From Gaiellaceae bacterium (GTDB lineage Bacteria > Actinomycetota > Thermoleophilia > Gaiellales > Gaiellaceae): a stretch of 64,000 nucleotides of DNA. Both the position numbers and the translations under genes were made by a program. Shown piece after piece: positions 15,830-32,242 of the stretch. The DNA is taken from NCBI GenBank assembly GCA_026002995.1, contig BPGK01000001.1, positions 558,001 to 622,000 on the forward strand. Reading direction: 5' to 3'. The notes beneath the pieces were generated by a model that worked only from the letters and a program-made list of their open reading frames with translations, was not told the origin of the DNA and searched no databases. The first letter of the stretch is position 1, and each line of letters begins with the position of its first letter.

Positions 15830-15902
15830 GGGGCCATAGCTCAGCTGGGAGAGCGCCACGCTGGCAGCGTGGAGGTCGCCGGTTCGAGCCCGGCTGGCTC
15901 CA
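15830..15902 (+). tRNA. tRNA-Ala (anticodon GGC)
   Basis: A 73-nt cloverleaf. The acceptor GGGGCCA pairs with TGGCTCC including the G3-U70 wobble that identifies alanine tRNA. D arm GCTC/GAGC, anticodon stem CCACG/CGTGG with loop CTGGCAG (GGC at 15863-15865), T arm GCCGG-TTCGAGC-CCGGC, discriminator A. CCA is not encoded. It is intact, unlike the tRNA-Ala(UGC) halves at 26.2 and 32.0 kb. Confidence 0.97.
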
Positions 15903-26135: not shown

Positions 26136-26150
26136 ACGCGCAGCCGGCGA

Positions 26151-26195
26151 TGGAGCGTACCGGGATCGAACCGGTGACCTCCGGCTTGCAAAGCT
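26151..26195 (-). repeat. Left att-like core: 3' half of tRNA-Ala(UGC)
   Basis: Read on the minus strand it starts at the anticodon loop (UUUGCAA), continues through the variable and T arms (ACCGG-TTCGATC-CCGGT) and ends ACGCTCC plus discriminator A. The 5' half is absent, so it is not a functional tRNA. Forty-three of 45 positions match the copy at 32018-32062. Confidence 0.85.
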
Positions 26196-26310
26196 CAACT
26201 CGGCCTTGCGGGCTCGACCGGTAGGGGCGGGGATTACCCGCAAGAGCAGGGGTTTCGTTCGTCGTCTTGCGGGGATTACCGGGAGCCGTCGGCGTCTTCC
26301 GGCGATCGCA

Positions 26311-26330
26311 TGCGGGATGTATGCGGGATG
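26311..26330. repeat. Arm-type repeat, left edge
   Basis: TGCGGGATGTATGCGGGATG contains two GCGGGATG units 11 bp apart. Identical DNA is at 32178-32197 and a variant with GCGCGGGATG units is at 31787-31807. The position, about 120 bp inside the core, fits integrase arm-binding sites. Confidence 0.5.
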
Positions 26331-26633
26331 AGGTCGTTGCCTGATTGTAGAACAGAGCACTGAGGTCCGTCGAACAGGTTCGGCCAGGCTCCTCACCATC
26401 GCGGTCTTTGGCGGGCCTCCGGGTCACAAGAGTTGACCGCCCCGCAAGCGGCTGCGGACGCATCGCGCTCGGCCCTCAACGAGCGGCGTTGACCCCCTTC
26501 TAGAAGCGGCTGGCACCTCACCGTCGCCTGCATTCGTGGGATTACGGTCGCGTTGCCGCTCAGCGACCTCCGATCGCGTGCCGATACTAATCGCGCTAAT
26601 GTTCAAGAATCGTTCAACTGAGAGGAGCTGTAC

Positions 26634-27428
26634 TTGCCCCTGGATCTAGCAGCGGTAGACCGGTCAACGCTCGCGCGGCCCCCGCTGACGAGCGTGATCT
26701 GCCAGGTCAGATACGACACGACCCCTGCGGCCTCCGATGCTCGGAAGCTTCAGGATCTGCGCTCGGCAATCGGCGGGGACGTGGCGTTTCCGTCGGTCGA
26801 GGAGATCAAGCAGGGCGAACTGTCCATCCAGTTCGGGCCAGGGATGTCTCCGGCGGCGTCTCAGCAGACGACCGTCGGGCGGGGATGGCGGCTGCGCAGC
26901 GCGGACGGCACGCGCGTTGTGGCTCTCCTTCCCACGTGGGTGACGCTCGAGATGTTCGCGTACCCGGGCTGGGACGAGGGATTTTTCCCCATGCTCGAGA
27001 GTCTGATCCAGGCCGTCAACGAGATCGTCGAACCGACTTTCGAGCAGCGCCTCGGGCTCCGCTACGTCAACCAGATCACTACTCCGGAGGATGTGAGAAG
27101 CGCTGAAGGGTGGGCGGGATTCATCGATCCGACGTTCCTCTCGGTGGCAGCCCATCCGGAGATCGGACCGCACGTGCATCTGACCCGGCAACAAACCGTG
27201 CTGGAGCTCGGGGACGGAGTCTCCTGCAACGTGAACCACGGCTTCGGCCCGGACGACGATCGCGGAGGGGCGCTGACCTACGTTCTCGATCTCGACGTCT
27301 ACCGTGAGGGCATGCGCGACTTCGACCCGCAGCTGATCTGCGAGACCGTCACACAGTTCAACCTCATCGCGCTGAGGCTCTTCCAGCTCGCCACTACGCG
27401 CGAGCTGCGCGAGGCTCTCGGACGATGA
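26634..27428 (+). CDS. TIGR04255-family protein
   Basis: 264 residues from TTG with AGGAG nine nt upstream. The segment around FEQRLGLRYVNQI, with VTLEMFAYPGWD before it and FNLIALRLFQLA at the end, matches what I know of the sporadically distributed TIGR04255 family. These proteins are of unknown biochemistry and turn up in variable islands. First gene of a three-gene operon (ATGA overlap with the next). An AT-richer promoter region with TAATGT (26597-26602) precedes it. Confidence 0.75.
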   Translation: MPLDLAAVDRSTLARPPLTSVICQVRYDTTPAASDARKLQDLRSAIGGDVAFPSVEEIKQGELSIQFGPGMSPAASQQTTVGRGWRLRSADGTRVVALLPTWVTLEMFAYPGWDEGFFPMLESLIQAVNEIVEPTFEQRLGLRYVNQITTPEDVRSAEGWAGFIDPTFLSVAAHPEIGPHVHLTRQQTVLELGDGVSCNVNHGFGPDDDRGGALTYVLDLDVYREGMRDFDPQLICETVTQFNLIALRLFQLATTRELREALGR

Positions 27429-28402
27429 CCGCCGCGCGAGTCACGGCCGGCACTCCGGTGATCACGCCGGGCGACACGATCGACGAGCTCTTCCCCGCAG
27501 TGCGGCATCAGCGTCGCTTCCATCTCGGCGCGATCTCCTGGCCGTCGAGCGCGGACGAGGTAGATCTCTATCGGCGGACGCTCGACACGGTCGCATGGCC
27601 GCATTCGACGTTCGAGGGCTCGGCGACGCCGGCGGCCGCGCTCGACGAGGTCGACACGACGCTTCTTCCCCATCACACCGAACCGTGGTGGTTCGTGCGT
27701 CGATGGAACCGGCGCCTCGACGAGTACGAGCTCGTCCGGGACGCTATCCGGGAGGTCATGGTCTTCACTGCCGGCGCCGACCCGAAGTGGACGGCATACG
27801 TCGACGTCGGCACGAGCTTCGCGGAGCCCGTCAGCCAACCCTTCGACGTCTGGTGGGAGAGCGGATTCGCCGAGCAGCCGATCATCGGAGGCTCGACGCT
27901 CGTCATTCATCGTCGCGCGCCCGACGTCTACGGCGGGTGGGAGGCCGAGGAGGACGAACCCCGGTTTGCGGTCCTGCGGTCGCCCGCATTCCGCGCGTTC
28001 ACAGAGCTCCGCGATTGGCTGAACCTCTCCGTGCCCGAAGCCACTACGCTGATCGGGGTCGGCCGCACGACTCCGAATGCATGGGAGCGGGAAGGCCGTG
28101 AGCCACGGCCACGACAGGCCCGGAGGCTCTACCAGCTGCACGGCCTGGTCGGGACGCTGGTACGCCGGCTCGGCCTCGATGAGGCGCGGGCGTGGCTCCA
28201 GCAGGGCGATCCGGCACGGTGGCGCCTCATGGAGGACGAGGACATCAGCATGTTCGCGAAGGCTGTTGAGACCATCGCAATGGGGCCGGCTCGGCCTCCA
28301 CGTCATGTCGCAGGAAGCGAGATCGCGGACGACCCAAATGCAGCGCGAGTCTTGCCCGGCGGCACAAGGCGTCGCGTCACCGTGCGACGGAGAAGGCGAT
28401 GA
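27425..28402 (+). CDS. Island protein with C-terminal HTH / Xre-antitoxin-like domain
   Basis: 325 residues. The first ~210 residues are unassigned (RFHLGAISWPSSADEVDLYR, EPWWFVRRWNRRLDEYELVRD, FDVWWESGFAEQPIIGG). The C-terminal ~100 residues look like a DNA-binding helix-turn-helix plus helical partner-binding region (LRDWLNLSVPEATTLIGVGR, NAWEREGREPRPRQARRLYQ, VGTLVRRLGLDEARAWLQQG), as in Xre/MbcA antitoxins. Translationally coupled to the TIGR04255 gene. It may regulate the operon or bind its partner. Confidence 0.7.
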   Translation: MTAARVTAGTPVITPGDTIDELFPAVRHQRRFHLGAISWPSSADEVDLYRRTLDTVAWPHSTFEGSATPAAALDEVDTTLLPHHTEPWWFVRRWNRRLDEYELVRDAIREVMVFTAGADPKWTAYVDVGTSFAEPVSQPFDVWWESGFAEQPIIGGSTLVIHRRAPDVYGGWEAEEDEPRFAVLRSPAFRAFTELRDWLNLSVPEATTLIGVGRTTPNAWEREGREPRPRQARRLYQLHGLVGTLVRRLGLDEARAWLQQGDPARWRLMEDEDISMFAKAVETIAMGPARPPRHVAGSEIADDPNAARVLPGGTRRRVTVRRRRR

Positions 28403-29290
28403 GCCTCGATCGAGGAGCGTGCGATCGCACCCTGGCCCAGTGACGTCCTTTCGGCGCTCAAGCGGTTCAAGCTCGGCGACCTCGTCGCCGGGGTTCCGTT
28501 CGTCTACCACGGCGCCGTCGAGGACGGCCTTCCTCTCGACTATCCGCCGCCCGATGCGGAGGACGATGATGTGGAGGCGGCTGCGGAGCGCGAGGACCCC
28601 GCTCCTCGAGACCGTGAGTTCGACGCGCTCGCCTGGGAGCCACCGGACGGCGACGGCTACGCGATCATCACGACGCAGACGTGCGATCTCTGTGAGGAGG
28701 GCGAGCCGAGCCAGCCGTGGTTCATGGTGAGCCCGGTGCGTCGGATGTCCGGCGCGCACGCGAGCAGAACGCTCCCCGGCTTCATGTACCGCATCTCGCC
28801 GCCAGATCTCCCGGGAGCCACCTGGGCAGCTGATCTCCGCATGGAGGTCCCGGTCGAGAAGACATTCCTCGTCGGCAAGACCCCGATCGCCGGCTTCGCC
28901 GACGAGAGAGGTCTCATCGACTTCGCCGATGCCCTGGGCCGGCGTCGCGATCGTGCCGCGCTCGCGTCGTCACTCGTCGGCGCCGTCGCAACTACGCTGC
29001 GCGAGCGACGTCGTCGCCAGGACGGTTTCAAGAGGATGCTGCGCCGAGAGGTCTACAGTGTCCGCCTGCGGATTGAGGAAGGCACGCGCGAAGCGCCAGT
29101 GAGCGTGGTCGTGCATGTTTTCACCAGAGGTCCCGTGTCGGACAACGTGCGTGACCGATTCGACGCGTGGTGGGACGAGGCACGCGAGGCCTGCGACCGT
29201 GTGGGAATCACGCTGCTGCCGACAAGGTTCCACGCATGCGAGGCCGACCTCGACATTTACGAGGACGCCATCGCACTCGATCTCGGTTGA
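28403..29290 (+). CDS. QTCDL-motif protein, no normal start codon
   Basis: The frame downstream of the previous gene's TGA is clearly coding (SDVLSALKRFKLGDLVAGVPF) but holds no ATG/GTG/TTG until 28571. The ATG at 28399, in the usual ATGA overlap, is in another frame and stops after 14 codons, so a one-base indel near CGATCGAGG is likely. Alternatives are TGA read-through from the previous gene (same frame) or a short form from GTG 28571 (239 residues). Motifs: YAIITTQTCDLCEEG, WFMVSPVRRM, and a C-terminal domain with FDAWWDEAREACDRVG. Function unknown. Confidence 0.6.
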   Translation, partial: ASIEERAIAPWPSDVLSALKRFKLGDLVAGVPFVYHGAVEDGLPLDYPPPDAEDDDVEAAAEREDPAPRDREFDALAWEPPDGDGYAIITTQTCDLCEEGEPSQPWFMVSPVRRMSGAHASRTLPGFMYRISPPDLPGATWAADLRMEVPVEKTFLVGKTPIAGFADERGLIDFADALGRRRDRAALASSLVGAVATTLRERRRRQDGFKRMLRREVYSVRLRIEEGTREAPVSVVVHVFTRGPVSDNVRDRFDAWWDEAREACDRVGITLLPTRFHACEADLDIYEDAIALDLG

Positions 29291-29461: not shown

Positions 29462-29779
29462 ATGTCCGCAAGAACTGCGAGGGCGCTCAGAAATGTGGAG
29501 AAGGCGGTTGCCGAGCTTCGTGCGTCGCTTGCGGCCGAAGATGCTCAGGTGGCGGGCGACGAACGATGGCTCCGGATGCTGACGATGGTTGAGGATGCCG
29601 GCGGGACAGTGACTCGCGACGAGTGGCGGGAGCTGGGACTCAAGTGCGGCTACGACCCGCGGGGCCTTGGCGGGTTCTACCGAGGGACGTACGCCTCGAT
29701 GCGTGTGAATCCCGACGGCACGCGATCCCTGACGGCTGCCGGAGTGGAGTACCTCACAAAGTACGGCCGGAAGCGCTGA
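29462..29779 (+). CDS. 105-residue island protein, possible winged-helix
   Basis: ATG with GAAGGAGAC just upstream, and an AT-richer promoter-like stretch (CTTTACGAAGTGCTAAAGCG, then TAGTGT). An N-terminal helix (ALRNVEKAVAELRASLAAED) precedes a compact domain that reads like a winged helix (WLRMLTMVEDAGGTVTRDEW, GLGGFYRGTYASMRVNPDG, LTAAGVEYLTKYGRKR). Possibly DNA-binding. Monocistronic. Confidence 0.6.
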   Translation: MSARTARALRNVEKAVAELRASLAAEDAQVAGDERWLRMLTMVEDAGGTVTRDEWRELGLKCGYDPRGLGGFYRGTYASMRVNPDGTRSLTAAGVEYLTKYGRKR

Positions 29780-29920: not shown

Positions 29921-30730
29921 CTACAGCGTCAGCGGGCTCGCGGTCTCGGTCTCGACCTTGGCCTTCCGCGCCTCCCAGGTAGCGACGAGGAAGCTGGCCA
30001 TCGCGCCAGCCAGGTTGACCGCCAGCTCGGCGTGTCGCGGGGCGGGGCGGACCGGCTTCGATCCCTGTCCGTGCGCGTCGCTGATGCGGTTGCGCAGCGT
30101 GGCGAGCCCGTTCACGACCGACCAGCAGCCGCCGAGGATCTGCTTGAACGCCTCTTCAGTGTGTTCGCTCGGGGCGATGTTCAGGGCCGAGGCGACCTTC
30201 CCGTAGAGCTTGGGCAGGTCGTCGTCGCTGTAGGTGACCTGCAGGTCGTCGAGGATCAGCTTGCAGACGGTCTCGAGCAGAGTCCGGGCAGCGGTGATCG
30301 CTCCCTCGGGATCCGATGCGCGCCGACTCAGCGCCTTGTCCCAGGCTGCATGCACGTGGTCGGCGTCGAGTGTCGACAGCGTCTCCGTCGTCGCCGCATC
30401 CGAAGGCGTCTCGCCAGCCTCGAGCGCCTCGAGGAGCGGAGCGAAGGCGTCCCAGATCTCGGTGCGTCGCTCGTGGTAGTGCGCCCAGCGGGCCTTGATG
30501 TAGCCCCAGAACTGCGCCGGGTCGCGGCAGGTGCGGACGAACGTCGGCACGAGCTCCTTGCTCCGCGAGTCGTTCATCAGCCGGCGGCGCAACTTCCCGT
30601 AGTCGTACGGGGTGATGGAGCCGCCGGTGGCGTGCGCGAGTAGGCCGTTCTGCAGGGCCTCGGCGGCCTCGTACAGCGTCAGTTCGTCTAGATCGGGTTC
30701 GGGCTCGTCATCCTCGAAGAACACGAGCAC
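29921..30730 (-). CDS. Abortive-infection C-terminal-domain protein
   Basis: 269 residues from a GTG 15 nt after the upstream stop; the 526-residue track ORF wrongly joins two genes. The N-terminal ~130 residues are unassigned (EPDLDELTLYEAAEALQNGL). The C-terminal region matches the Abi_C pattern: GAITAARTLLETVCKLILDD, LPKLYGKVASALNIAPSEH, QILGGCWSVVNGLATLRNRI. Such proteins accompany phage-defence or toxin-like systems, but the activity of this one is not shown by the sequence. Minus-strand operon with the frameshifted gene. Confidence 0.75.
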   Translation of the reverse strand: MLVFFEDDEPEPDLDELTLYEAAEALQNGLLAHATGGSITPYDYGKLRRRLMNDSRSKELVPTFVRTCRDPAQFWGYIKARWAHYHERRTEIWDAFAPLLEALEAGETPSDAATTETLSTLDADHVHAAWDKALSRRASDPEGAITAARTLLETVCKLILDDLQVTYSDDDLPKLYGKVASALNIAPSEHTEEAFKQILGGCWSVVNGLATLRNRISDAHGQGSKPVRPAPRHAELAVNLAGAMASFLVATWEARKAKVETETASPLTL

Positions 30731-30744
30731 ATCGTAGGTGCCGC

Positions 30745-31501
30745 CTACTCGCCGATGGCCGTGCGGACGAGCTCGCTGAAGCCGATATAGAGATGCGCGA
30801 GGCCGGCGGCCGCGCCGAGGAACGCCAGGCGCTCGTTGTGCTTGTGGAACGGATCCCGCTCCCACGCAGCGACGAGGTCCCGCTGCTTGTCCCAATGGAT
30901 CAGATCGCCGAAGTGGTAGGCCGAGAACAGGTAGACGGGCGAGTGCTCGCTGCCGAACTCGAGGTTCGGGTCGACCTTGCGGCGGACGAGACGCTTCAAC
31001 TCCGTGGCCTGCAGCTTCCCGCGCGCGCCGCGCCAGGCATCGAGCTGCGCACAGCGCTCGTCGGCCAGACCGTCGGTCTCGGCGGCCGAGGCCTTGCCGG
31101 AGGCGGCCACTGACGATGAGGAAGCTCGCCGGCTCGCCCTTGCCGTCGAACTGGCGCAGGAGGGTCGAGAACCCACGTGTGATCTCCTTCGACGTCTCGA
31201 TCGCTTCAACGTGTTCCTCGCCCGTGTCGTCGTCGAGGTGGACGGTCATCTGGTCGTCCCCTCCGAGCAGCTGGCTCTCGGCCAGCTCCTCGGCCGCGAC
31301 GATGAAGCGCTGGCAGAGCTCGAGGCTCTCCTGGTCGAGGGGCTGCGTGAGCGTCGGGAACGAGCGCGGGTCGGCGATGTCCGGGAAGACGAACTGAAGC
31401 ATCCGCCACCAGAAGCGGAAGGCCTCCGGGTTCGGCGCGCGATCGATCAGCGGCGGCTCGAACGTTAGGACGTTGTTCTCGATAATCGCCTCGGCGGCCA
31501 C
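30745..31501 (-). pseudogene. Frameshifted partner of the Abi_C gene
   Basis: The N-terminal half reads in one frame (AIIENNVLTFEPPLIDRAP, FWWRMLQFVFPDIAD, then GEPASFLIV). The rest reads in another (SGKASAAETDGLADERCAQL, YLFSAYHFGDLIHWDKQRDL, HLYIGFSELVRTAIGE). Dropping one base near 31111 joins them into a protein of about 250 residues. The frame is open upstream of the GTG at 31501 (KKKDGEFVRF) with no start, hinting at 5' truncation as well. Function unknown. Either a real disruption or an assembly error. Confidence 0.65.
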
Positions 31502-31807: not shown

Positions 31808-32017
31808 GCGTTGTTGTCTGCCAAGAAATCCCTGCACACAGGAATGTCCTCGACGACCGCCGACGTGATCTCCGATCTACTTCAACCGGCACAGAACTTG
31901 CGGGAATTTGCGGCCACGAGCGGGTTTCGCCGGCGTCAGCCCGATTCGCGCGAGCACGCCGCTGGCGTGGATTTTGCCCATAAAGGCAACAACAAAGTGC
32001 CAATTTGCAGGTGTTTA

Positions 32018-32062
32018 TGGAGCGTGCCGGGATCGAACCGGCGACCTCCGGCTTGCAAAGCT
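32018..32062 (-). repeat. Right att-like core: 3' half of tRNA-Ala(UGC)
   Basis: Same half-tRNA as at 26151 in the same orientation. It differs at two positions that form a base pair of the T stem (G-C here, A-T there), so pairing is kept. Sequence to its right (to 32242) resembles the left edge of the first island, as if another element begins here. Confidence 0.85.
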
Positions 32063-32242
32063 CTGCTTTGCCTTGCGGGCCTAGCCGGCGCATGCGGGGA
32101 TCACCGGCGAGAGCAGGGATTTCGTCCGGCGCCTTGCGGGGATTGACGGGAGCCGCCGGGGCCTTCCGGCGACCGCGTGCGGGATGTATGCGGGATGAGG
32201 TCGTTGCCTGGTTGCAGAACAGAGAACTGTGAGCCGTCGAAC
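32018..32242. repeat. 225-bp direct repeat, copy 2
   Basis: Aligns with 26151-26375 over its whole length. Includes the tRNA half, several copies of GCGGGGAT, and the arm pair at 32178-32197. Confidence 0.8.

Follow-up and report, generated by a model that had tools for sequence, protein, structure and literature searches.

Genes of the operon and the surrounding island

The window analyzed here, a stretch of 64,000 nucleotides from the genome of a Gaiellaceae bacterium, contains three genes on the forward strand (A, B, and C), which the original prediction had described as a coupled operon encoding a TIGR04255 protein, an HTH protein, and a protein with a QTCDL motif. All three open reading frames (ORFs) were found at 26634-29290, and the 4-nt overlap between the end of A and the start of B as well as the TTQTCDLCEEG motif of C, whose ORF ends at 29290, could be confirmed. 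The operon and the other features of the island are as follows:

26150-26375, direct repeat D1, copy 1: left island boundary, starting with an approximately 46-bp 3' fragment of tRNA-Ala(TGC)
26634-27428, + strand, A: TIGR04255 family protein of 264 aa with a TTG start
27425-28402, + strand, B: protein of 325 aa, candidate antitoxin or repressor, with an Xre-type HTH around residues 185-260
28403-29290, + strand, C: QTCDL protein of approximately 288-295 aa, candidate toxin, judged from the frame, homologues, and predicted fold
28661-28705, + strand, codons surrounding the conserved [TS]Q[TD]CD motif in C (IITTQTCDLCEEGEP), from translation and alignments
29462-29779, + strand, ORF of 105 aa: in the island downstream of the trio, with no significant family; a neighbour that may lie outside the module
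29921-31501, - strand, Abi_C locus: a neighbour in the same island that may lie outside the module, with the Abi_C gene in its low-coordinate part and, upstream of this, a gene in two frames
32017-32242, direct repeat D1, copy 2: right island boundary, with a tRNA-Ala(TGC) 3' fragment

The TTG start of A is preceded by GAGAGGAG. The protein is a full-length member of the NCBIfam family TIGR04255 (E 8.8e-36, 124 bits against a cut-off of 30), with profile positions 2-252 of 252 covered; Pfam gave no match for it up to E 1. When A, B, and C were compared with Pfam, NCBIfam, PADLOC, and PHROGs, nothing was found except TIGR04255 for A and a weak HTH for B; the PADLOC database of 2023 gave no family for any of the three up to E 1, and none of them falls into an ordinary metabolic family. 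The NCBIfam match states neither the function nor the partners of TIGR04255, and no paper naming the family was found in the open-access literature searched. The predicted model of A is good (pLDDT 82, pTM 0.83), and its fold matches are weak (AdoMetDC, guanidino kinases, and TBP; Z 8.1 or less), too weak for any activity to be drawn from them. SecB was absent from the fold matches shown for A, a list that by itself cannot exclude it. A sequence search of A and C against solved structures gave nothing credible.

An HTH is indicated in B by a weak match to HTH_31 (residues 193-249, 0.0023) and by its homologues: HTH_3 (7.7e-6) and Xre-like-HTH (6.6e-6) were among the leading families for 19 of them, the latter being matched by six of the 19 with 6.6e-6 as the best value. 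The B of the window itself reached only 12.1 bits against NF049845, for which the cut-off is 90. The N-terminal part of B is variable. A hydrophobic N-terminal stretch is present in three homologues (L035, L042, and L073), which could be membrane-associated, and is missing from the B of the window.

The reading frame of C extends upstream of the listed ORF start at 28571 and is open from the stop codon of B (28403 on). Many C homologues start near the B stop with an N-terminus resembling M-(T/S)-I-D-x-x-L-P-x-x-W-P. In the window, the overlapping ATGA at 28399 lies one base out of the C frame, which has no ATG, GTG, or TTG upstream of 28571. Judging from the sequence, either a +1 shift at the start of C (real or an assembly error) or an ATC start at 28424 behind GAGGAG is possible. 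With its C start out of frame, the window copy of the module may therefore be inactive.

The D1 repeats are 226 bp long and 85% identical to each other, and the tRNA sense in copy 1 is on the - strand. The intact tRNA-Ala(TGC) gene matched by their fragments lies at G000:C1:662137, about 72 kb off. The boundaries of the island are these repeats; the tRNA-Ala(GGC) gene at 15830 was rejected as a boundary. The trio-bearing segment between the repeats measures 5.6 kb and has a GC content of 0.664, compared with 0.70-0.71 outside, and no integrase was found within it. C was absent from all six congeneric genomes sampled; within the class, 16 of 299 genomes carry it. The trio segment fits the picture of an acquired, tRNA-associated island. 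The repeats themselves lack the 5' half of the tRNA and resemble two remnants left by integrations that took place one after the other at a tRNA gene.

An Abi_C-type pair had been reported next to the operon, of which the Abi_C gene could be verified (PF14355, E 3e-23; AbiJ profile, 1.5e-20), while the partner gene upstream of it is spread over two frames. The 526-aa ORF ending in Abi_C probably represents two genes with the middle out of frame; the 5' gene goes on in another frame (ORF 30745-31209), with a frameshift near 31,100. Two apparent indels are thus present in one island, at the C start and in the Abi_C partner, reflecting either decay or assembly error.

Predicted fold of the C protein

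Structure prediction, which had been proposed as a check, gave only the weak fold matches described above for A and a recognizable fold for C. In the AlphaFold2 model of C (based on eight homologues; pLDDT 74.5, pTM 0.53), an N-terminal domain of predicted MazF/CcdB fold is followed by a C-terminal alpha/beta domain. The leading Foldseek matches in the PDB were nearly all MazF/CcdB proteins, with a probability of up to 1.00 and a best E of 4e-3, and a second aligner superimposed the model on MazF-mt3 with Z 9.9 over 103 residues (rmsd 2.8 A). The N-terminal domain of C is accordingly predicted by modelling to adopt the MazF/CcdB fold.

At the sequence level, the similarity between a C profile and 20 MazF proteins was collinear and marginal, with a score of 22.1, whereas 100 column-shuffled decoys reached 17.4 at most; a narrower C set scored 17.6 against the MazF profile versus 17.2 for decoys. 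In this marginal alignment, QTCD falls near the Asn-Asp loop of MazF and the DLRxxxPVEK segment of C lies over DQIRTVDK of MazF; no counterpart of the catalytic Arg and Thr of MazF is seen in C, whose conserved QTCD Cys lies in that region, the alignment itself being marginal. None of 17 C proteins matched the Pfam PemK_toxin family at E up to 1. The Cys of QTCD is kept in divergent relatives of C, where the motif reads QDCD, RTCD, SHDC, HPCT, or QSCD. The C-terminal domain resembles 8hhj_A, a chain of the MafB2-CT/MafI2 complex (PMC9970974), with Z 8.8, a likeness from which no functional reading of C was drawn.

Recurrence, mobility, and breakage of the cassette

The distribution of the trio was surveyed by searches with C (plasmids included; one scan used a query from four C proteins) and by a TIGR04255 search, and the neighbourhoods obtained were read with A, B, and C profiles. 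In line with the co-occurrence that the original prediction had proposed to look for, A, B, and C were found in the same order and on the same strand at 26 distinct loci by profile and HTH, near-identical mycobacterial copies being counted once. This number includes L076, where the middle gene was recognized by an HTH match alongside A and C, and L014, in which the contig ends within A. At another three loci (L069, L071, and L073), A and B are accompanied by a divergent third gene, which is C-like by eye only (a QGD-like start and a conserved Cys). A weak C match in G166 (L005), with four internal stops, was set aside as unreliable. According to record titles, the loci come from five phyla: Actinomycetota, Pseudomonadota (Rhizobium, Sinorhizobium, and Sphingomonas), Cyanobacteriota (Chroococcidiopsis), a Clostridiales MAG, and a Dormiibacterota MAG. 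The recurrence of the trio in unrelated genomes places the arrangement far beyond chance. In a comparison of 16 loci, identities between pairs of homologues (medians of 25, 17, and 23% for A, B, and C, respectively) were correlated among the three proteins with r 0.92-0.94, a level not reached in any of 2000 permutations, which indicates that the three proteins diverge together. A-B-C is a real, conserved, and apparently undescribed three-gene cassette.

The members of the cassette do not always occur together. Among 246 actinobacteria sampled, TIGR04255 was present in 19 genomes, of which eight had the trio arrangement; A was also found alone or with other neighbours. At L066, L074, L077, L078, and L081, TIGR04255 is followed by other small uncharacterized genes (140-186 aa) and not by B and C, and the family may have several kinds of partner. 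C-type proteins with neither A nor B recognized nearby were found at L128-L131, L134-L136, and L138, and one at L139 has A and no B. Such relatives of C weaken the toxin reading: either the partners of solo C-type genes are different ones, or the toxicity of C is not universal. Three of these genes (L129, L130, and L131), which are chromosomal, have a QDCDL motif and possibly form a non-toxic branch of the family.

Several trio copies are associated with mobile elements. Six mycobacterial assemblies (L013 and L020-L024) have the trio within an integrase island whose sequence agrees to 94-100% over 8-12.5 kb. L019 and L025 have only the approximately 2.5-kb cassette in common, at 79-83% identity. 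Further copies are carried on conjugative plasmids or adjoin genes for integrases, relaxases, or ParA. When plasmids were searched, B and C of the window gave no match and C homologues did. No C homologue was found in viral contigs or phage records, and C thus does not look like a phage gene. The six assemblies sharing the mycobacterial island (from about position 282) belong to different species, a sign of recent transfer. On a Rhizobium acidisoli plasmid (L045:6977-7780), C is in four pieces, a decaying remnant with A and B not found nearby.

The neighbours of the trio are rich in defence genes. In a comparison of 54 trio-neighbour proteins with PADLOC, 117 family matches were obtained, including ThsB (5e-115, L069), a Type III methyltransferase (1e-89, L071), GajA (2e-52, L016), Fic (6e-42, L043), and a Type ISP restriction enzyme (L019). 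A control of 54 proteins from arbitrary regions, mostly of trio-bearing genomes, gave 38 matches, one of them below 1e-40; the neighbour set was hand-picked, and the contrast is therefore indicative and not a formal test.

Breakage affects the three genes unequally. C carries a defect at six loci where both A and B are intact, and no disruption of A or B was found among the loci examined. The defects of C comprise the start out of frame in the window, a frameshift (L016), nonsense codons (L039 and L125), and one-base insertions (L024 and L038); the L038 copy comes from a single-contig genome and is 99.8% identical to an intact one. By gene length, C makes up approximately 36% of the coding sequence, and six of six by chance would have a probability of approximately 0.002, a value that takes the breakage events as independent and to which assembly errors may contribute some of the frameshifts. 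If C were the toxin, one would expect it to be lost while the antitoxin gene is kept, which is the asymmetry observed here.

Possible functions of the cassette

The cassette is probably an undescribed three-part toxin-antitoxin or anti-phage module. That the original prediction knew of no described system with the trio agrees with the lack of a PADLOC model for it and with a search of the literature on three-part MazF/Xre systems, which yielded only papers on TAC-type systems and on toxin-antitoxin systems in general. The proposal of a new defence or toxin module gains support from the predicted fold of C, the HTH of B, the neighbourhoods, and the breakage of C only, and the module remains a candidate. 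Neither of the two outcomes named in advance as refuting it came about, since the genes co-occur elsewhere and belong to no metabolic family. A mobile tripartite toxin-antitoxin-like module with C as its effector is a fairly likely explanation. The analysis shows that the genes are linked in a fixed order and diverge in parallel, that B has an HTH and C a predicted fold, and that the cassette is mobile, sporadically distributed, found in neighbourhoods rich in defence genes, and broken only in C; toxicity of C, neutralization by B, the role of A, the trigger, and phage defence are inferred. In such a module, C would act through a MazF/CcdB-fold domain with the conserved [TS]Q[TD]CD loop and a C-terminal alpha/beta domain, and, once free, C would interfere with a basic process (translation or DNA topology, for instance). 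As a protein with an Xre-type HTH, B would bind the promoter of its own operon and keep C inactive, and A would be a third component with a stabilizing or sensing role. Infection or loss of the element might then remove A or B, by which C would be freed.

Three other explanations have to be weighed against this one. That A, B, and C are chance neighbours in a decaying island, with no common function, might be suggested by the often unrelated nature of island genes, the improper start of C in the window, and the two frames of the Abi_C partner; the recurrence of the trio with unchanged gene order in five phyla, together with its correlated divergence, refutes this reading and leaves it a negligible probability. 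It is unlikely, yet worth more attention, that C is no toxin and is instead a nucleic-acid- or ligand-binding MazF-type barrel, A-B-C being a regulatory or maintenance cassette of mobile elements in which B is the repressor and A and C are co-regulators or sensors. The DNA-binding type of B, the apparent absence of MazF catalytic residues from C, and solo chromosomal C-type genes apparently lacking a small antitoxin gene (e.g., L129-L131) are consistent with such a cassette, whereas the confinement of breakage to C in six loci and the company of restriction, Thoeris-type, and other defence genes argue against it.

A phage defence system not of the toxin-antitoxin type, in which A or C would directly sense or modify an invader component and B would be a regulator, with no pair of toxic and neutralized proteins, appears rather improbable. 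Defence-island neighbours, the Abi_C locus in the same island, and the failure of every PADLOC model to fit the trio would all be compatible with it. However, toxin-antitoxin pairs are usually made up of just such components as the predicted MazF/CcdB fold of C and the Xre-type HTH of B, and A-B-C is best read as belonging to the toxin-antitoxin/abortive-infection kind.

Among known systems, TAC and CmdTAC (PMC11618068; PMC5105189) are similar to A-B-C in having three small co-directional genes for an HTH-bearing antitoxin candidate, a toxin candidate, and an extra protein, these roles being putative in A-B-C. In CmdTAC, a phage capsid protein displaces the chaperone from the complex, upon which the antitoxin is degraded and the toxin is freed, and the third protein can thus sense phage, which shows that modules with a logic of this kind exist (PMC11618068). 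The toxins of TAC systems belong to various families, that of CmdTAC (CmdT) being an ADP-ribosyltransferase; for C, a MazF/CcdB fold is predicted. A belongs to TIGR04255 and gave no match to SecB among the families and fold matches listed. By analogy, A-B-C is best read as working like TAC/CmdTAC without being a member. Toxins of MazEF, PemIK, and CcdAB share with C the predicted N-terminal fold and the collinear, marginal profile similarity, but C differs from them in having no Pfam PemK match, no visible catalytic Arg/Thr, an extra C-terminal domain, and the conserved QTCD Cys, and the cassette differs in its HTH partner and third gene. RES/Xre systems (MbcA/ParS) may share an Xre-type HTH with B (weak NF049845, and PF20432 in homologues), but they consist of two genes rather than three, and no RES domain was matched in C.

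In comparison with its NCBIfam entry, TIGR04255 is here tied to B and C-type genes, by which the family gains a genomic context and a testable role. On the basis of its model, C would add a family of MazF/CcdB fold that escapes sequence profiles. Should the cassette prove to be toxic and to respond to phage, the third component of this tripartite toxin-antitoxin system would be unlike SecB-like chaperones, so that what A senses would become directly askable. More tentatively, TIGR04255 could be the constant core of mobile three-part conflict systems with a variable HTH partner and effector, the effectors having a MazF fold and acting via the Cys loop of [TS]QxCD; if true, this reading of the loop would imply an effector chemistry not described for the MazF fold.

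Two unusual arrangements were also observed. One contig of G721 carries both L125, a full trio with the nonsense codon in C, and, approximately 9 kb apart, L139 with A and a short C-type protein. At L138:2793-4774, a similar row of three genes has other first (234 aa) and second (231 aa) genes and a shorter third protein with SQSCDL, none of the three matching Pfam, and this row may represent a parallel module with a C-type effector.
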